Of a stretch of DNA of 6,860 bases, positions 1 through 6,860 are shown one piece after another. Origin of the DNA: Syntrophorhabdus sp. (GTDB lineage: Bacteria > Desulfobacterota > BSN033 > UBA1163). Under the pieces are notes generated by a model, which ran no database searches, was not told where the DNA came from, and worked only from the letters and a program-made list of their open reading frames with translations. Numbering within the stretch: position 1 is the first letter of the stretch; every line of letters starts with the position of its first letter. Both the position numbers and the translations under genes were made by a program. The stretch spans positions 7,416-14,275 of the forward strand of contig DYHU01000071.1 of the NCBI GenBank assembly GCA_020724025.1, read 5' to 3'.

Positions 1-1344
1 CTAATGTCCACCTTCAAACTCCCTGCGGTCAAGAACTCGTTTTGCCTTCCCTTCGTACCGAGGCAATGATCCTGGTTCATGTAAAACCACCTCAATGCTC
101 ATCCCTAAGCGTCCATAAACTCCCTGGCCAATCTTTTCCTCAATCGCCTTCCTCTGGGTGATATCCTGCCAGATATCGGGTTGAACTTCGGCATGGACAG
201 TAAGTTTGTCCAGGCTTTCCCTTGGGCGGTCAATCACGATTTGCCAGCCGTCCCCGATCCCCGGAGTTGAGTTTAGAATCTCCTCGATTTGAGATGGAAA
301 AACCAATGTGCTTCTAACCTTCAACACATCATCGCTTCGACCCGTAATCCGCTGAATCCTGGGGTGGGCCACTCTTCCGCAAGGGCATCCGAAAGGATTC
401 TCCGATAGGGCTGATATATCTCGGGTTCGCCAACGTATCAGCGGCGTAGCCTCCCGGGTTAGGGTTGTAATGACCAGTTCGCCGCTCTGACCTGGTCCAA
501 GCCGTTTTCCCGTAGCCGGGTCGATCACCTCGACAAAATAATGCTCCGCCAATATGTGGAGTTCACAGGATTCTCTTGAAAATTGACAGCTGTGGCCGAC
601 CGTAGGACCTCCAAGTTCTGTGATCCCATATCCCTCATGCCATTCGAACCCTTCCGGCATGAGAGCTTCAACTCGGCGCCTCAGGGCCGGGGCGGCGGGT
701 TCACCTCCTATGTGGCTGGTTCGAAGTTTCCAGTCCTTTTTAGGATGAAAGCCGTTTTTCTGGGCTACGTCAACGAGGTAGCTCACAAAAGAAGGGGTCG
801 TGCTAATGGCCTGGAATTCCAAATCCTTCAAGTACTGTATCGCAGCCAATGTCCTTCCGGGGCCGGCAGGAAAAATGATGGCGCCGATAGCTTCGGCTCC
901 CGCATCCAAACCGGGCCCTCCCATGAAAAGACCGTAACCAGCGCATTGATAGATGAGGTCGCTTCGACGAAATCCCATGGCAGTAAGGATTCGACCCATC
1001 TGCTCCCGAAGAGTCTCCATCCAATCCTTCCGAGTGAACCCTACCAAGGCGGGAACGCCGGTCGTTCCAGACGATGCAGCAAATCGATAAATCCGATCCA
1101 GGGGAACTCCAAGAAGGCCATAGGGATATAAGGCTCTCAGGTCATTTTTCTCTGTAAACGGAACGGAGGTCAAGTCCTCCGTGGTCCGGATATGTTCTGG
1201 TTTGATACGGTTTTTATCGAAGAGGTCCCGGTAATAGGGAATCTCACGATAACATCGCTCCACCAGGGCGCGGAGCCGTTCGTTCTGGATTTCACGGAGT
1301 TTCTGTAAGGAAATAGGGTCAAATTCATTAAAAAAATTAGACAT
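1..1344 (-). CDS. PaaK-like AMP-forming acyl-CoA ligase (phenylacetate-CoA ligase family)
   Basis: A cytoplasmic ligase of the ANL (adenylate-forming) superfamily, expected to turn a carboxylic acid, ATP and CoA into acyl-CoA, AMP and PPi. Seen: the nucleotide loop SSGTTGVP at residues 91-98, the YGITE motif at 239-243, RTRD at 306-309, the hinge motif GRSDD at 335-339, a CPC pair at 320-322 as found in many PaaK relatives, and the C-terminal EGK with the probable catalytic Lys433. At 447 residues it is close to E. coli PaaK (about 437). ATG 1344 is preferred over GTG 1368 because the GTG would put the ribosome binding site inside the gene. The stop codon is the first three bases of the window, so the gene is complete. 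Oddity: where PaaK normally reads RGVNVFP this protein reads RSTLVFP (344-350). The substrate cannot be read from sequence. Its place behind a mutase and a carboxylate transporter argues for an aliphatic or hydroxy acid rather than phenylacetate; known 2-hydroxyisobutyrate pathways also pair an acyl-CoA ligase with the mutase. Confidence 0.93.
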   Translation of the reverse strand: MSNFFNEFDPISLQKLREIQNERLRALVERCYREIPYYRDLFDKNRIKPEHIRTTEDLTSVPFTEKNDLRALYPYGLLGVPLDRIYRFAASSGTTGVPALVGFTRKDWMETLREQMGRILTAMGFRRSDLIYQCAGYGLFMGGPGLDAGAEAIGAIIFPAGPGRTLAAIQYLKDLEFQAISTTPSFVSYLVDVAQKNGFHPKKDWKLRTSHIGGEPAAPALRRRVEALMPEGFEWHEGYGITELGGPTVGHSCQFSRESCELHILAEHYFVEVIDPATGKRLGPGQSGELVITTLTREATPLIRWRTRDISALSENPFGCPCGRVAHPRIQRITGRSDDVLKVRSTLVFPSQIEEILNSTPGIGDGWQIVIDRPRESLDKLTVHAEVQPDIWQDITQRKAIEEKIGQGVYGRLGMSIEVVLHEPGSLPRYEGKAKRVLDRREFEGGH

Positions 1345-1350
1345 GCGAAT

Positions 1351-1357
1351 CTCCTTT
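1351..1357 (-). promoter_or_regulatory. Ribosome binding site that fixes the ligase start
   Basis: On the minus strand AAAGGAG lies 6 bases before ATG 1344. It sits inside the possible 8-codon extension that begins at GTG 1368, and no comparable site precedes that GTG. This supports the 447-residue protein. Confidence 0.75.
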
Positions 1358-1376
1358 TTTCTACTCACCCCACTGG

Positions 1377-1606
1377 GAGACTGTGTCGCAATATGAAAAT
1401 ACCGACTTTTTGAAAAGGGGGAGAGGCGGTCAGGTGGAAAAGATTTAGAGCGGTAACCTTTAACCGTTCGGATTCAGGTGTGCAAAACGTATGAAAAAAT
1501 TCGATTTTATACAAGCGACGATTTCCCATAATCTAAAAGACCCGCATTCTAAAGCTTTGGAACCTGACTGCCTCTCCCCCTTTGATTGCAATTATGACAC
1601 AGCCTC
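1377..1606. repeat. Long imperfect inverted repeat, possible MITE or insertion-element remnant
   Basis: The two sides of the gap between the mutase small subunit and the ligase are inverted copies of each other. Core: 1414-1435 pairs with 1562-1583, 22 bases with one mismatch (G1428/T1569, still a G-U pair in RNA). Outer ends: CTGTGTC at 1381-1387 matches GACACAG at 1596-1602, and similarity reaches weakly to 1377 and 1606. Inner part: AAAG-x-TTTAGA followed by CGG on the left (to 1453) matches the reverse complement of 1542-1558. The left arm carries about 14 extra bases. The centre (about 1454-1541) has no gene. No clear target-site duplication is visible. The layout (matching ends, non-coding, about 220-230 bp, between genes) fits a MITE; a folded RNA hairpin acting on the operon transcript is the alternative. 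Confidence 0.6.
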
Positions 1607-1635
1607 TGAGGAGAGGGGATGGGTGAAACGATGGT

Positions 1636-2031
1636 TTACGTTTCCACCAGCTCATTCACCTTTTGGATGATCGTATCCCGCATCGTGCCTGGAGTGAAAA
1701 TTGCAGAAACCCCCAAACCATTCAAGGCCTTTACATCATCAGGAGGGACCACTCCCCCGATGATGAGCTTCTTATCCTCTAAACCATTTTGACGCAGCAG
1801 TTGCAGTAGCTTCCGGCAATAGAAGAGGTGTTCCCCGCCTAAAAAGCTGCATCCGATGAGGTCTGCGTTCTCCTGGAGGACCGCCTTGACCATTCCTTCA
1901 GGGGTATTATAGAGCCCTAAGTAAATGACCTCGAATCCGGCATCGGCCAACCATTTGGATACGATCCGGATACCATTGTCATGACCATCCAGGCCGATCT
2001 TTCCGATCAGAATCCGTTTTTTCTTTTTCAT
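1636..2031 (-). CDS. Acyl-CoA mutase small subunit, cobalamin-binding domain
   Basis: The B12-binding subunit of a split acyl-CoA mutase, 131 residues, matching the usual size of stand-alone subunits (about 130-140). Seen: a basic start MKKKKR, then IGKIGLDGHDNG with the DxHxxG signature Asp15-His17-Gly20; His17 is expected to be the lower axial cobalt ligand and Lys11 matches the lysine that hydrogen-bonds in this region of methylmalonyl-CoA mutase. SxL is present as SFL at 62-64 (then GGEH where the usual form is AGGH), and GG at 92-93 is followed by VVPPDD. All parts needed to hold base-off, His-on cobalamin are intact, so the complex should be catalytically active. The ATG is 9 bases after the large-subunit stop, with GGAGG in that gap (2036-2040), so the two subunits are made from one message. 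The separate small subunit is the layout of isobutyryl-CoA and 2-hydroxyisobutyryl-CoA mutases and of archaeal-type methylmalonyl-CoA mutases. Confidence 0.94.
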   Translation of the reverse strand: MKKKKRILIGKIGLDGHDNGIRIVSKWLADAGFEVIYLGLYNTPEGMVKAVLQENADLIGCSFLGGEHLFYCRKLLQLLRQNGLEDKKLIIGGVVPPDDVKALNGLGVSAIFTPGTMRDTIIQKVNELVET

Positions 2032-2040
2032 ACCCCCTCC

Positions 2041-3678
2041 TTAAACATAGTGAACCTTAAAATCATAGGCCTCGCGTAAGGTGTCATTGATCTCTCCTAA
2101 AGTGGTCTTTTGATCTACGGCTTCGAGGATCGCCTGGAAAAAGTTACTATTGGGATTCTTCTTCACCTTATGGTAAAGATTTTCTAAGGCTCGCCTGGCC
2201 TGATCTTTGTTTCTGGACTCTTTATATTCTCTGATATATTGAATCCTTTTTTCCTGCATATCCGAGGCATGACGGAAGATATTGATCTTGACCTCCTCGT
2301 CCTCCTCCCGCTCCATGTTGACCCCCACCTGGATCTGTTCCCCTGTCTCTAATTGACGGGCGTATTCATATCGGGCTTCATTGATCTGATTCTCAATCCA
2401 TTGAGATTTGAAGCATTCTAAAAACCCTCCCTTTTTTTCGATCACCTCCATCAGGGCTAAGACGCCCTCCTCAATTTCGTCTGTTAATTTTTCGATCACA
2501 TAAGAGCCTCCGAGAGGATCTGCAGTACGGCAGACACCCGCTTCGTAGGCGATCACCTGCTGTGTTCGAATGGCGAGCACCTGTGCTTCCTCCGTGGGCA
2601 GGGCATAGCCTTCATCATAGGAGGTGGTGTGGACGGACTGACTTCCCCCTAAGACAGCGGCCAGAGTCTGAATCGCCGCCCGCACAATATTATTCAAAGG
2701 CTGTTGTGCGGTAAGAGGCAGAGAGGAGGTCTGAACGGCAATTCGACACAAGCAACTCCTCGGGTCTTTAGCGCCGAAGGTGTCCTTCATGAGGCGGGCC
2801 CATATCCGTCGCATGGCTCTCAGCTTGGCAATCTCCTCTAAGAAGTCAATATGAACGGTTGCAAAAAAACCGATGCGTGGAGCAAACTGATCAATGTCCA
2901 TTCCCCGGGTCAACAGGGAACGAACGTACTCTAATGCGAGTGAAAAAACAAAGGCAACTTCTTGCACGGCATTGACCCCCGTCTCTCTGATGTTACGGGA
3001 ATTAATATTGATGATGTTCCATCGGGGAATGTGTTGAACGCAATATTCCATGACATCGGATGCGATCTTGATCGCAGGATCCAAAGGGAAGAAATGTGTC
3101 CCGGATTGGTAAGTCGGGCCAACCAACTGAGTAATCGCACAATTCATGATCGTTCCGATCAATTGCGGGGGCTCAACCTTTTGTCTCTGAGCAACCAGAA
3201 GATACATCGCCATGATGATGGCCGAATAAGGAGGATTCACAATAAGGGTCGTGCTGACTTTATCCAAAGGGATCCCGTGAAAAAGGGTCTCCATGTCTTC
3301 GAGGGTGGCAACGGAAGTTCCTACCAAACCCACATCCCCTTCAGCCAAAGGGTGATCAGGGTCCAGACCCAGTTTGGTAGGAATATCAAAGTCAATGTTA
3401 AGCCCTGTCATCCCTTTGTTCAAAAGGAAATGAATGAGGTGGTTGCTCTCTAAAGGAGACCCGAAGCCGCTTTGCTGTCTCCTGGTCCATAACCGACCTC
3501 GATACATGTCCTTGTAAACTCCCCTGGTAAAGGGGAACGTCCCGGGGTCGGGCGGGTCTTGGGAGACGTCCTCACAAGTATAAAATTCTTTCATCTCAAT
3601 GCCTGAAAGGGTCCTGAAATGAGGAAGTCTTTCGCCTTTCAAATATCGATCATATCGAACCTTATCTAAAGCTTTCAT
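2041..3678 (-). CDS. Adenosylcobalamin-dependent acyl-CoA mutase large subunit with atypical active site
   Basis: Catalytic TIM-barrel subunit of a B12 acyl-CoA mutase, 545 residues, without its own B12 domain. Family signatures: PFTRGVY and MYRGRLWT (about 49-65), GxTGL..DFDIPT (89-101), DHPLAEGDVG (108-117), GIPLDKVS (135-142), IRETG..AVQEVAF (230-243), FAPR (265-268), LGGSQS-HT-SYDE (343-356) and DPLGGSY (387-393); the C-terminal 90 residues match the linker that precedes the B12 domain in fused enzymes. Aligned by eye to P. shermanii methylmalonyl-CoA mutase, substrate-contact positions differ: Tyr89 is Gln69, Ala116 is Asp96, Gln197 is Met178, Arg207 is apparently Ser192 after a 4-residue insertion, Tyr243 is Arg228, His244 is Asn229, Ser285 is Gly270, His328 is Ala314, Asn366 is Thr352. 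Glu370 (Glu356) and Gln330 (Gln316) are kept. It is therefore unlikely to use methylmalonyl-CoA; the true reaction is unknown. Start: GTG 3681 is directly followed by ATG 3678; AGGA lies 7 bases before the ATG, which is preferred. Confidence 0.93.
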   Translation of the reverse strand: MKALDKVRYDRYLKGERLPHFRTLSGIEMKEFYTCEDVSQDPPDPGTFPFTRGVYKDMYRGRLWTRRQQSGFGSPLESNHLIHFLLNKGMTGLNIDFDIPTKLGLDPDHPLAEGDVGLVGTSVATLEDMETLFHGIPLDKVSTTLIVNPPYSAIIMAMYLLVAQRQKVEPPQLIGTIMNCAITQLVGPTYQSGTHFFPLDPAIKIASDVMEYCVQHIPRWNIININSRNIRETGVNAVQEVAFVFSLALEYVRSLLTRGMDIDQFAPRIGFFATVHIDFLEEIAKLRAMRRIWARLMKDTFGAKDPRSCLCRIAVQTSSLPLTAQQPLNNIVRAAIQTLAAVLGGSQSVHTTSYDEGYALPTEEAQVLAIRTQQVIAYEAGVCRTADPLGGSYVIEKLTDEIEEGVLALMEVIEKKGGFLECFKSQWIENQINEARYEYARQLETGEQIQVGVNMEREEDEEVKINIFRHASDMQEKRIQYIREYKESRNKDQARRALENLYHKVKKNPNSNFFQAILEAVDQKTTLGEINDTLREAYDFKVHYV

Positions 3679-3681
3679 CAC

Positions 3682-3819
3682 TGTTTCCTTATTTTAATGA
3701 AGAGATTTTCCCTTCTGATGGGAAATACGGATGGCCATCGTTTCTGCAGGCTCTTGAGAATATTAAGAGATAGGGCCTCACATTTTCAACAGATTTGATA
3801 CCTGTAAACACTGGCCGTA
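3682..3819 (-). promoter_or_regulatory. Gap between transporter and mutase genes, with a weak promoter candidate
   Basis: These 138 bases hold no convincing gene. On the minus strand TTGAAA (3784-3789) and TAATAT (3760-3765) are 18 bases apart and resemble a sigma-70 promoter pointing into the mutase gene; the -10 matches consensus at only 4 of 6 positions. A small hairpin follows: GGGAAA at 3720-3725 pairs with TTTCCC at 3707-3712 around a 7-base loop. It has no run of T after it on the minus strand, so it is not a normal terminator. The region could let the mutase and ligase be expressed apart from the transporter. Confidence 0.3.
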
Positions 3820-5124
3820 TCAATAAATCCCCAAGAGAGATGGAAGGAAAAGCATGAGCTGTGGGAATACAAACAGCAAGGCCGCGCAAAAGATGAGACC
3901 GAGCAAGAAAGGGTAAACCCCGCTGTAAATCACCCCAAATGGCACCTTGGTGATATTCCTAACCACAAAGACATTGACCGCCACAGGAGGAATAACCACG
4001 CCAATCATCACAAAAATATGGAGGATGACGCCAAACCATATCGGATCGTAACCCAGTTTGACGACGATAGGAAAGAAGATGGGAGTGGCCAGGACCATAA
4101 AGGCGAGGTCATCGATAAAAGAGCCCCCCACTTCATAGATAAGCAAAATGAGAATCATAATCAGAAAAGGTGGAAGAGGAAGTTGCCCGACCCAATCTGC
4201 GGCTATTATGGGGATTTTCGTCACCACAAGAAAATGGCCCAGGATGGTGGAGCCTGCAATAAGCACGAGGACCATGCAAGCGGTGCGGAGCGACTCTGCA
4301 ACCGATTTAATAAACCCTTTAACATCGAGGTCCTTTTTGATAACGGATAAAAGGAGAACGGCAAACGTCCCGGCGCTCCCTGCCTCGGTGGGGGTAAAGA
4401 AACCCTTGGCCATCCCTCCGGTCACGATGATGAAGATTAGGACAACCCATATCACCTCTTTGAGTGACAGCCATCTTTCTTTCCAGGTCGATTTTTCGCC
4501 CTTAGGGCCTAAGGATGGATCAATCTTGCACCATCCATAGATGACGAAAATAAACATGAGGGAGACGATCAGCCCGGGAACCGTTGCAGCCATAAATAAT
4601 TTTCCGATGGATGTCTCAGTAATCATGCCATAGACTATGAGGGTGACGCTCGGCGGAATGAGGCTGCCAAGCGTCCCTCCCACGGCAATGATCCCCGTAG
4701 AGAGTTTCTTGTTGTAATGATATCGATCCATCTCGGGATAAGCCACACTTCCGAAGGTGGCTGCTGTGGATATAGCGGAGCCAGTCACGGTCCCGAAGGC
4801 GGCGGCCCCTCCCACAGTGGCCATAGCCAGCCCTCCGGGGATGTGTCCGATAAACTTGTAAGAAGTATCATACAATCTCTTCGCAATCCCTGCATTAAAG
4901 GCGATCTGGCCCATGAGGACAAAAAGGGGAATGACCGTAAACCCATATGAGGAGAAGACATCAAAAACATCCTTGGCCAATAGGTTCAAACCGGCCTTAA
5001 ACGAAACAATATAGCTGAACCCGAGAAAACCAACGAGGGCCATAGCAAATCCCAATTCGATCCCGGTGAGAAATAAGGCCATCACAACGGCCAGGCCTAA
5101 AATTCCGATCGTCACCTCATTCAT
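3820..5124 (-). CDS. dctM: TRAP transporter large membrane subunit DctM
   Basis: The ion-coupled transport channel of a tripartite ATP-independent periplasmic (TRAP) carrier, in the inner membrane. It has 434 residues, the normal size, and is hydrophobic throughout, with roughly a dozen membrane segments. Family motifs: PLFVLMGQIAFNAGI (66-80), GGAAAFGTVTGSAISTAATFG (105-125), GGTLGSLIPPS (149-159) followed by LIVYG and the TETSIGKLF stretch (169-177), TPTEAG (244-249), and a second IPP (378-380) in the matching half of the inverted repeat fold. The start ATG overlaps the end of dctQ by 8 bases (ATGAATGA), with GGAGG 5 bases upstream inside dctQ, which points to translational coupling. It lies ahead of the mutase and ligase genes, so it probably imports their substrate, a carboxylic acid, driven by a sodium or proton gradient. 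Confidence 0.95.
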   Translation of the reverse strand: MNEVTIGILGLAVVMALFLTGIELGFAMALVGFLGFSYIVSFKAGLNLLAKDVFDVFSSYGFTVIPLFVLMGQIAFNAGIAKRLYDTSYKFIGHIPGGLAMATVGGAAAFGTVTGSAISTAATFGSVAYPEMDRYHYNKKLSTGIIAVGGTLGSLIPPSVTLIVYGMITETSIGKLFMAATVPGLIVSLMFIFVIYGWCKIDPSLGPKGEKSTWKERWLSLKEVIWVVLIFIIVTGGMAKGFFTPTEAGSAGTFAVLLLSVIKKDLDVKGFIKSVAESLRTACMVLVLIAGSTILGHFLVVTKIPIIAADWVGQLPLPPFLIMILILLIYEVGGSFIDDLAFMVLATPIFFPIVVKLGYDPIWFGVILHIFVMIGVVIPPVAVNVFVVRNITKVPFGVIYSGVYPFLLGLIFCAALLFVFPQLMLFLPSLLGIY

Positions 5125-5599
5125 CTTTCCCTCCAGAGATCTTCAAGATATTACACAGGAGCACCAGGCACTGGATAAAACAGCAAAATCCCAATCCATA
5201 AGCAACCGGATAAAAAGGCATGGTCAAGGTGGGGGAGACTTCTCCTGCCTTCTTCAGATCCATTCCATACTTGATCAATTCCAAGCCGATGATGAAGAAA
5301 AGCAATATTCCAAGACATCTCGTAGAAATATTGAAGACGTTTCTTATTTTCTGAGAGAATCTTAAAATAAGAAAATCCGTATAGACATGTCCCTTCACCC
5401 AGGTTGTAAAAGGGACGGAAAAACCGATCACAACTGCCCCTGAGAAGGCGACTATCTCATAAGTCCCAATGATAGGTCTTCTAAAGGATCTTAAAATAAT
5501 ATCAGCAACCGTGAGAAACATGATGAATGTAAGGCTGACACCCCCAATGAAATTGATGAGGCGGCTGAGTTTCCATACCTTATCCAAAAACCATCCCAT
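5117..5599 (-). CDS. dctQ: TRAP transporter small membrane subunit DctQ
   Basis: The small membrane partner of DctM. It has 160 residues and four predicted membrane helices, at about 14-34, 46-66, 88-108 and 129-150. Family-like features are the early LTFIMFLTVADIILRSFRRP stretch (23-42; V-D-I-x-x-R-x-x-x-x-P is the usual DctQ pattern) followed by GTYEIVAFSGAVVIGF, and the WVKGHVYTDFL segment (67-77) where family members read KGHVRVD. ATG 5599 is preceded by AGGAG with 6 bases spacing. The last codons overlap dctM. It is separated from dctP by 95 bases that carry a terminator-like hairpin, so it is probably expressed at a lower level than dctP. Confidence 0.93.
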   Translation of the reverse strand: MGWFLDKVWKLSRLINFIGGVSLTFIMFLTVADIILRSFRRPIIGTYEIVAFSGAVVIGFSVPFTTWVKGHVYTDFLILRFSQKIRNVFNISTRCLGILLFFIIGLELIKYGMDLKKAGEVSPTLTMPFYPVAYGLGFCCFIQCLVLLCNILKISGGKDE

Positions 5600-5639
5600 A
5601 AATGACTCCTTTAATTTTATAGAAGAGATGGACGGGCCA

Positions 5640-5685
5640 AAATTATTACAAAAATAAAAGGGGAAGGAATGCAGTCCTTCCCCTT
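5640..5685 (-). terminator. Intrinsic terminator or attenuator between dctP and dctQ
   Basis: An 11-base-pair perfect stem (5675-5685 with 5658-5668) with a 6-base loop, rich in G and C in its lower half, is followed on the minus strand by TTATTTTTGTAATAATTTT. It begins 9 bases after the dctP stop codon. Since dctQ and dctM follow in the same direction with no clear promoter of their own, it is likely a partial terminator that lowers transcription of the membrane subunits relative to the binding protein. Confidence 0.85.
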
Positions 5686-5694
5686 CTCCTTGTC

Positions 5695-6708
5695 CTATTT
5701 TTGATATTTATAGAGTGTCTCCAGATAGAATCTCAGCGCTTCATCTCCGGGTAACCCCTTATCCTTCATACTTTTAACATATTCATCGTAGAGGGGCTTG
5801 AGCGCCCTTTCCCATTTCCGATTCTCATCCACTGAAAGGGGGATGATCTTGTTGCCCAATTTTATCGTAAAATCTTTTCCCGCTTTATCAATTTCATCCC
5901 AACCCTTTCCATGTTTCTCAGACCATTCCCCGTTGATCTGTTCGATGATCTTCTGGATATCCGGAGGCAAGGCATTCCACTTATCCTTATTCATGGCTAT
6001 GAAAAAGGCAGAGCTGTAATACATGCCCGGGGCTTCTGTGGTAAATTTCACCACTTCTCCCCACTTCCATGCTTGCAAGGCTTCATAGGGTGCAATCGAA
6101 GCTTCGACTACCCCTCTGCTTAAAGCCTCGTAGGTTTCACCCATAGCCATTGCCACTGGGGCTCCTCCAAGGGTTGTTACAATTTTTGTGACCGCGCCAA
6201 AGGCACGAACCTTCATCCCTTTAAGATCCTCAAGCTTCTCAACAGGTTTTTTGGTATGAAGGAGTCCTGGTCCATGGGCATGCATGTACATCATCTTGAC
6301 ATCATCAAATTCCTTTGGTTTAAATTTGGCTATGTATTCATTGATCACTTTCGTAATGGCCCATCCACTTTTGTGGCTTAAGGGCAGTTCAACCACCTCT
6401 GTCAAAGGAAATCTTCCTCTCGTGTAGCCACAGACGGACATGCCGACATCGGAAAGCCCTTTCACCACGCCATCATAAACCGCGGGCGCAGGAGTGAGTG
6501 TGCCGCCATAATGCATCGTGACTACAACCCTTCCATTTGTCCTCTTCTCGATCTCCTTTCCCCATTCAGCAGCCAGCACACTGTGCTTATGAGGAGCAGG
6601 GAAAAAGATGGAGTAGCTGAGTTTTATCTGTCCAAATGCCGGCGAAATGGAGAATGAAAATACCACCAATAAAAATAACGTAAATGCGATTGCTTTGTAA
6701 CGTCCCAT
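5695..6708 (-). CDS. dctP: TRAP transporter periplasmic solute-binding protein DctP
   Basis: The periplasmic receptor that captures the substrate and hands it to DctQ-DctM. It has 337 residues, the usual size. Residues 1-26 form a Sec signal peptide (GRYK, then a hydrophobic core, cleavage likely after SPAFG). Mature-protein motifs: GKEIEKRTNGRV (50-61), VVKGLSDVGM (81-90), KLEDLKGMKVRAFG (158-171), LGGAPVAMAMGETYEALSRGVVEA (180-203), and GMYYSSAFFIAMNKDKWNALPPDIQKII (228-255). Arg168 in KVRAFG matches the arginine that forms a salt bridge with the ligand carboxylate in TRAP receptors such as SiaP, so the substrate is very likely a carboxylic acid. The family spans dicarboxylates, keto and hydroxy acids, aromatics and others, and the ligand cannot be named from sequence. 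The start ATG is preceded by AGGAGG with 6 bases spacing. First gene of the visible operon. Confidence 0.95.
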   Translation of the reverse strand: MGRYKAIAFTLFLLVVFSFSISPAFGQIKLSYSIFFPAPHKHSVLAAEWGKEIEKRTNGRVVVTMHYGGTLTPAPAVYDGVVKGLSDVGMSVCGYTRGRFPLTEVVELPLSHKSGWAITKVINEYIAKFKPKEFDDVKMMYMHAHGPGLLHTKKPVEKLEDLKGMKVRAFGAVTKIVTTLGGAPVAMAMGETYEALSRGVVEASIAPYEALQAWKWGEVVKFTTEAPGMYYSSAFFIAMNKDKWNALPPDIQKIIEQINGEWSEKHGKGWDEIDKAGKDFTIKLGNKIIPLSVDENRKWERALKPLYDEYVKSMKDKGLPGDEALRFYLETLYKYQK

Positions 6709-6860
6709 ATGTTCCCTCCTTTCATTCTTATCCCTTATTCTATTCGTAAACGATCGGACCCTTTATTAAGTCTTTTCCTTTTATCACCTCCTTCTTAATG
6801 AGAATGTTCTTCTTCAAAAAGTATTCTACCACATACGACAAAAAAATATCTACCATTATT
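6709..6860 (-). promoter_or_regulatory. Leader upstream of dctP with ribosome binding site and candidate control elements
   Basis: No gene can be supported in these 152 bases. On the minus strand AGGAGG lies just before the dctP start (6715-6720). Further up, AAGGAGGTGAT (6783-6793) is a full match to the 16S rRNA anti-Shine-Dalgarno but has no start codon within 15 bases after it. A dyad GTAT-N8-ATAC (6821-6836) and two copies of TGGTAGA (6849-6855 and 6825-6831) could be parts of an operator; TAGAAT within it (6822-6827) could be a -10 box, but no good -35 partner is visible. The operon promoter may lie here or beyond the window edge. Confidence 0.35.

Follow-up and report, generated by a model that had tools for sequence, protein, structure and literature searches.

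A six-gene cluster in Syntrophorhabdus sp. encodes a B12-dependent acyl-CoA mutase in which asparagine replaces the catalytic histidine of methylmalonyl-CoA mutase (MCM). The cluster lies on a 6,860-nucleotide stretch of DNA, called the window here (assembly GCA_020724025.1, contig DYHU01000071.1, positions 7,416 to 14,275). The substitutions in the pocket of the large subunit are family traits and not marks of decay, and they belong to a constrained enzyme family. We propose, with a probability of roughly 0.55, that the window encodes an adenosylcobalamin (AdoCbl) enzyme that rearranges the carbon skeleton of a CoA-activated monocarboxylate, which is imported and probably aromatic or hydroxylated. 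The family, the predicted fold, the conservation and the gene neighborhood behind this proposal were each observed.

Identity of the two mutase subunits

The open reading frame (ORF) of the large subunit extends from 3681 to 2041 (546 aa), with a likely start at the ATG at 3678 (AAGGA upstream; 545 aa) and a stop at 2041. The protein is full-length and covers positions 1-511 of the 512 in the PF01642 profile, scoring 581.8 bits against a cut-off of 22.1. It consists of the substrate-binding TIM-barrel part only, matching PF01642 alone, and is not fused to a GTPase or B12 domain. Its score of 443 bits against NF006944 (cut-off 876) was obtained with a one-chain model, on which a split enzyme would score low. 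IcmF, glutamate mutase and the aminomutases were set aside on the basis of fold scores and domain layout. By these profiles the large subunit is placed in the acyl-CoA mutase superfamily, and a 1,2-migration of the thioester is its predicted reaction.

The first-pass annotation had described an intact cobalamin subunit beside the large one. This was borne out: the small subunit keeps the cobalamin motif (DxHxxG) as GLDGHDNG and scores 127.9 bits against TIGR00640 (cut-off 57.45). Only 9 bases separate the large-subunit stop from the small-subunit start, and the two genes almost certainly form one unit because of this spacing. The small subunits of the window and of three related loci (L001, L007 and L023) share GHDNG(I/L)RI and the segment SFLGGEH, whereas those of iaa-type, 2-hydroxyisobutyryl-CoA mutase (HCM) and isobutyryl-CoA mutase (ICM)-like systems read GHDRG(A/V)KV and have other letters at the second segment. 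Two small-subunit copies in L016 differ in part from both patterns. The small subunit thus seems, from these motifs, to have changed along with its partner.

Pocket substitutions and their conservation

Residues are numbered as in Propionibacterium shermanii MCM, following the literature, with the MCM sequence taken from an alignment. The window protein carries Q89, D116, M197, C199, S207, R243, N244, G285, H291, A328, Q330, T366 and E370. All nine substitutions listed in the first-pass annotation (Y89Q, A116D, Q197M, R207S, Y243R, H244N, S285G, H328A and N366T) are real in this alignment, and Q330 and E370 are retained from MCM. R207S is approximate because a four-residue insertion (VGPT or similar) lies just before the site; this insertion, which the annotation had not mentioned, is present in all 34 members of the clade described below.

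Conservation was assessed in 238 distinct homologues drawn from two protein searches (the best 120 each of about 8000 scored), so that the counts describe the near family only. D116, M197, C199, N244, A328, Q330, T366 and E370 are each invariant (238/238). Q89 is found in 232, and the other six rows are truncated at that site. Position 207 is S in 140, A in 97 and C in one, with Arg in none; position 243 is R in 158 and Y in 80; H291 is kept in 223. Across the wider clade, R86, Q89, N114, N244, A328 and T366 are present in all 34 rows and M197 in 32; three rows (L012, L017 and L020) have N in place of D116. Comparison of the window gene with four relatives gave dN/dS values of 0.088, 0.059, 0.085 and 0.047, with synonymous sites partly saturated. 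The annotation's preference for changed specificity over decay is upheld by these low ratios (0.047-0.088), the invariance of the new residues, the intact B12 subunit and the MeaB chaperone genes next to the family members L014 and L037.

Not every listed position is equally informative. Residues 285, 328 and 366 are not diagnostic because they vary in known mutases as well: the MeaA row (Ruegeria megaplasmid, L103) has G328 and P366, iaa-type operon rows have I/L328 and C366, and HCM has A285 in place of Ser285. The telling changes, as judged by alignment, are Q89, D116, M197/C199, N244, and the loss of Arg207 with its adjoining insertion. Tyr243Arg, also among the nine listed changes, holds for the window protein but is not a family trait.

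It had also been claimed that known mutases keep the catalytic histidine. This is correct for the MCM, HCM, MeaA and putative IaaG rows (fused IcmF lies outside this alignment), but loss of His244 is not unique to the clade. The residue is missing, as N, D, G, S or T, in 15 of the 67 tree rows outside it, and 13 of these 15 also lack Arg207. As few as three changes between His and other residues at 244 suffice on the tree. The 15 rows come from genomes with 3 to 18 PF01642 matches, and we know of no characterized enzyme among them. His291 was considered as a substitute catalytic base and dropped, being also present in rows that bear His244 and replaced in 15 of the 238 homologues.

A separate clade of uncultured bacteria

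A quick maximum-likelihood tree of 101 rows was built from a set in which 76 of 91 PF01642 matches were fetched, the other 15 being fragments and some longer, perhaps fused, frames. The set did not include the sequences from Desulfococcus biacutus and Kyrpidia tusciae or the alkylsuccinate, fused ICM and verified IaaG sequences. The window family forms a clade of 34 rows with a support of 100. Its nearest rows are uncharacterized and have D or N at 244 (the first copy in L074, and L078, L079, L080 and L097). MCM, ICM-like, HCM, MeaA and putative IaaG rows all fall elsewhere, which is the outcome of the placement check proposed in the first-pass annotation. The ICM-like rows are so named for their ICM residues (F89, Q207), and the MeaA row corresponds to ethylmalonyl-CoA mutase. 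Several deep joins involve long branches.

Hydantoinase-like and molybdenum enzymes belong to the iaa cluster. The iaa-type rows were named from neighboring genes alone, which in L111 are a family III CoA-transferase, hydantoinase A and B, molybdenum-hydroxylase parts and a PaaK-like ligase, and in L113 acyl-CoA dehydrogenase, electron-transfer flavoprotein (ETF) and TRAP transporter genes. According to PMC8360864, the iaa cluster comprises the CoA ligase IaaB, the transferase IaaL, the mutase IaaGH and the dehydrogenase IaaF, and is also reported in sulfate reducers. The three iaa-type operons (L111, L112 and L113) occur in genomes that also hold a window-family member (G007, G009 and G014). 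They have a mutase and a PaaK-like ligase of their own, with TRAP genes in L113.

Two peptide patterns run over 84,980 species genomes found 23 loci, all titled as metagenome-assembled genomes (MAGs). They are assigned to Desulfobacterota, Deltaproteobacteria including Syntrophorhabdus, a proteobacterium, one Nitrospinota, one Chloroflexi, two Rokubacteria and three alphaproteobacterial MAGs. A scan of 395 phylum genomes, with up to three candidates scored per genome, gave six matches at E 1e-180. Among the names given, available for some of the proteins only, none is that of a cultured or characterized organism, and no paper was recognized as describing the family within openly licensed PMC full text, outside which most of the subscription literature lies. 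Canonical HCM was found in 0 of the 395 genomes at E 1e-190, a scan that was run without a positive control and carries no weight; in 19 of the 23 genomes of the class, rows 49-53% identical to HCM were present and none was nearer.

Two Rokubacteria MAGs, G011 (L019) and G013 (L021), hold 11 and 15 PF01642 matches, and a Rhodospirillaceae MAG, G012 (L020), holds 18; several copies lack His244 or have very different pockets. These genomes carry a large radiation of putative B12 mutases. Judging from such alignments, the superfamily hides many pockets yet to be characterized, and the window family is one among them.

Paired copies and position 243

The history of position 243 was followed in a carefully built tree of 49 rows in which that site was masked; it comprised 32 members of the 34-row clade, 14 additional homologues and three outgroup rows. 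The position changed twice on this tree, and a single origin of the R243 rows was rejected by the approximately unbiased (AU) test (p 1.9e-31). This double origin had not been noted in the first-pass annotation. R243 or window-type copies occur in seven genomes besides that of the window, and six of these have a Y243 copy as well. The two lie in one operon in L001, L016 and L099; the other pairs are L003 with L004, L015 with L037, and L022 with L005, of which L022 is a partial copy that ends before site 243. In the seventh genome (L002, G331) one copy was seen, with three of its six candidates scored. Because the paired-copy pattern recurs, it suggests that duplication and Y243R split one job into two.

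Content of the probable operon

The six genes of the window, identified by ORF listing and Pfam profiles, are all on the minus strand (Table 1). This common strand and the presence of the same genes together in other loci suggest one operon, a context that was also absent from the earlier annotation. The ligase ORF is listed from a GTG at 1368; its likely start is the ATG at 1344, with AAAGGAG upstream.

Table 1. Genes of the window and the fullest related operon.
Feature	Coordinates	Strand	Basis or remark
TRAP solute-binding protein DctP	5695..6708	minus	profile and structure matches
TRAP small permease DctQ	5117..5599	minus	profile match
TRAP large permease DctM	3820..5124	minus	profile match
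Acyl-CoA mutase large subunit, Asn for catalytic His244	2041..3678	minus	profile and alignment
B12-binding small subunit, 131 aa	1636..2031	minus	profile and motif
PaaK-like acyl-CoA ligase	1..1344	minus	profile and alignment
Double-mutase operon	L016:10001-15764 and L099:9567-15244		Arg243 copy first, Tyr243 copy second

Among 24 sources (the 23 loci and the window), ORF clusters anywhere in the locus included the small subunit in 18, DctP in 10, TetR in 9, the PaaK-like ligase in 8, a FadD-like ligase in 7 and MmgE/PrpD in 4 (families by Pfam). Many of the contigs are short, and ORF calls in L017-L019 were misled by antisense frames. The fullest operon, in L016 and L099, contains TetR, large subunit (R243), small subunit, FadD-like ligase, large subunit (Y243), small subunit, MmgE/PrpD and TRAP genes; the order of the three TRAP genes differs between the two loci, and the L099 operon is flanked by thiamine and motility genes. 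In the case of L001, the order is TRAP, large subunit (R243), small subunit, PaaK-like ligase and large subunit (Y243). A MeaB chaperone gene adjoins the family mutase in L014 and L037.

The nearest solved structures to the window DctP, by both structure and sequence, lie in the aromatic-acid binder group (TarP and others). The window DctP is therefore predicted to bind an aromatic acid, and probably does so.

A palindromic insert lies between the small-subunit and ligase genes and, with the hairpin after DctP described below, weakens the case for a single operon. It is an imperfect palindrome of about 230 bases (1377-1606) with arms at 1414-1449/1548-1583 (86%) and 1377-1392/1591-1606 (81%) and a DNA fold z of -7.75. 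The corresponding junction in L001 lacks the palindrome, and an 18-base arm motif had no exact copy in 136 loci. The element looks like a miniature inverted-repeat transposable element (MITE)-type insert. Over 1300-6860, promoter and terminator scans yielded hit numbers close to those in shuffled sequence (8 vs 7.9 and 7 vs 6.2). Riboswitch control was considered and dropped, since Rfam had no match in the window or seven loci save one tRNA in L023.

Proposed function

Activity, direction and substrate are what we infer from these observations. In the small catabolic module that we read in the window, the TRAP transporter would import a carboxylate, which the PaaK-like ligase would convert to its CoA thioester. 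In the manner of ICM and HCM, the two-subunit AdoCbl enzyme would then shift the thioester group to the neighboring carbon, so that a branched acyl-CoA becomes linear or a linear one branched. Asn244 would take over from His244 the hydrogen bond to the thioester carbonyl, and Arg243, in window-type copies, would add a positive charge, probably for recognizing one more acidic or hydroxyl group. The absence of Arg207 speaks against a free carboxylate of the methylmalonyl type at this site, and Asp116, a residue shared with HCM, suggests that the substrate bears a hydroxyl or another polar group. Since an aromatic acid is the likeliest import, we expect the mutase to act on aryl-substituted (hydroxy)acyl-CoA esters. 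A more speculative version, which we offer tentatively, is a new class of AdoCbl carbon-skeleton mutase acting on aryl- or arylhydroxy-acyl-CoA with Asn for the His of its characterized relatives. In some genomes the ancestral Tyr243 form and an Arg243 duplicate, which arose at least twice, would then work as a pair within one pathway, on two related substrates or in two successive skeleton shifts.

Several observations weigh against the proposed function. We know of no family member with a known activity or substrate. Removal of His244 from MCM costs much activity (the H244A structure is 1e1c, by its title), so Asn may not be equivalent to it. The large-subunit model has pLDDT below 50 at residues 353-360, beside the Thr366 site, and across a large part of the first 60 residues. 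After DctP comes a terminator-like hairpin (5687-5656), and a single transcript for all six genes is for that reason not assured. The Pfam scan found no dehydrogenase, thiolase or ring-attacking enzyme in the window, and the MmgE/PrpD and FadD-like ligases of related operons are not obviously aromatic. As for the transporter, the title of 4n6d, the best-scoring binding protein, names no ligand as displayed, the titles of 4nap, 5im2 and 4p56 are cut short, and the binding protein of L016 is poorly resolved from other groups (64.7-128 bits vs 72).

The competing explanation that survives best, though we consider it unlikely, makes the enzyme an HCM-like but divergent 2-hydroxyacyl-CoA mutase whose substrate would be a short tertiary 2-hydroxy acid of the aliphatic type, for example 2-hydroxyisobutyrate or one of its homologues. 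HCM (4r3u) is the closest solved relative by sequence (416 bits) and shares Asp116 (Asp117 in HCM numbering), and the AU test does not reject a tree in which the clade joins HCM (p 0.11), although the best tree keeps the two separate. HCM clusters also have an adjoining ligase (PMC7176365), labelled phenylacetate-CoA ligase in Xanthobacter (L104). However, the window ligase is just 34% identical to this one, and Ile90 (HCM numbering), Gln207, Tyr243, His244 and His328 of HCM are Gln, Ser, Arg, Asn and Ala in the window protein. The acetone-induced mutase of Desulfosarcina cetonica, which has a 64.7-kDa subunit, is encoded with a 3-hydroxyacyl-CoA dehydrogenase and a thiamine diphosphate (TDP) enzyme (PMC7888143); both families were absent from the 46 Pfam-scanned proteins of the window and related loci, which represent part of the neighbors.

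A different AdoCbl radical reaction on an acyl-CoA, such as an elimination or a hydroxyl shift in place of thioester migration, appears less probable still. His244 probably assists migration through a bond to the thioester carbonyl, and another reaction would explain its replacement, along with other pocket positions, throughout the 238 homologues; the unusual SFLGGEH segment would fit as well. Asn is still able to bond the carbonyl, however, and mutases share the remaining fold, the cobalamin motif and the association with a CoA ligase. A copy that is decaying or has no catalytic role, comparable to the P. shermanii MCM beta subunit, would account for the missing catalytic-pocket residues, but is very improbable given the low dN/dS, the invariant new residues, the intact small subunit and the absence of a second large subunit from the ORFs of the window. 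An ordinary MCM with drifted residues is hardly credible: sources naming these genes say methylmalonyl-CoA mutase or mutase family protein, and fold and Pfam match fit, but Arg207 is lost in all 238 homologues and Tyr89 in all 232 rows aligned there, and genomes of other clade members hold an additional mutase that matches MCM at each of the nine sites (L024, L026, L027 and L029).

The window family is a coherent, uncharacterized branch of a known enzyme kind. The first-pass interpretation is partly supported and survives in a weaker form: changed specificity in place of decay is upheld, the weight put on several of the listed positions is overstated, and the new reaction that it called probable is a candidate reading.

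Comparison with known mutases

Few B12 acyl-CoA mutase reactions are known. This family is well defined and conserved, and its associated ligase and importer are open to expression and screening, so that its substrate could be sought directly. If the enzyme is active without His244, it would test how far the 1,2-shift needs that residue; if it is an aryl-acid mutase, a further pathway for branched aromatic acids would exist where these uncultured bacteria live. The methylmalonyl-CoA mutase labels on these genes could mislead metabolic reconstructions.

MCM itself differs from the window protein at all nine listed positions, and IcmF is a single chain with B12 and GTPase domains, whereas the window large subunit is unfused. 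Ethylmalonyl-CoA mutase (annotated MeaA) likewise lacks His328 and Asn366 but keeps Tyr89, Ala116, Arg207, Tyr243 and His244. IaaGH, the phenylsuccinyl-/benzylmalonyl-CoA mutase of indoleacetate degradation, resembles the window system in its aromatic-acid path and PaaK-like ligase, and in the TRAP genes of the L113 operon. However, iaa-type rows, assigned by their neighbors, keep the same five residues as MeaA and form another clade. The hydantoinase-like pair, family III CoA-transferase and acyl-CoA dehydrogenase of iaa-type operons are absent from the window, which may hold a partial operon. HcmAB shares the two-subunit layout, Asp116, the lack of Arg207 and an adjoining PaaK-family ligase. 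The window system departs from it by Gln for Ile90, Asn for His244, Ala for His328, Thr for Asn366 and the four-residue insertion, by having TRAP genes and no MeaB, and by forming its own clade in the best tree.
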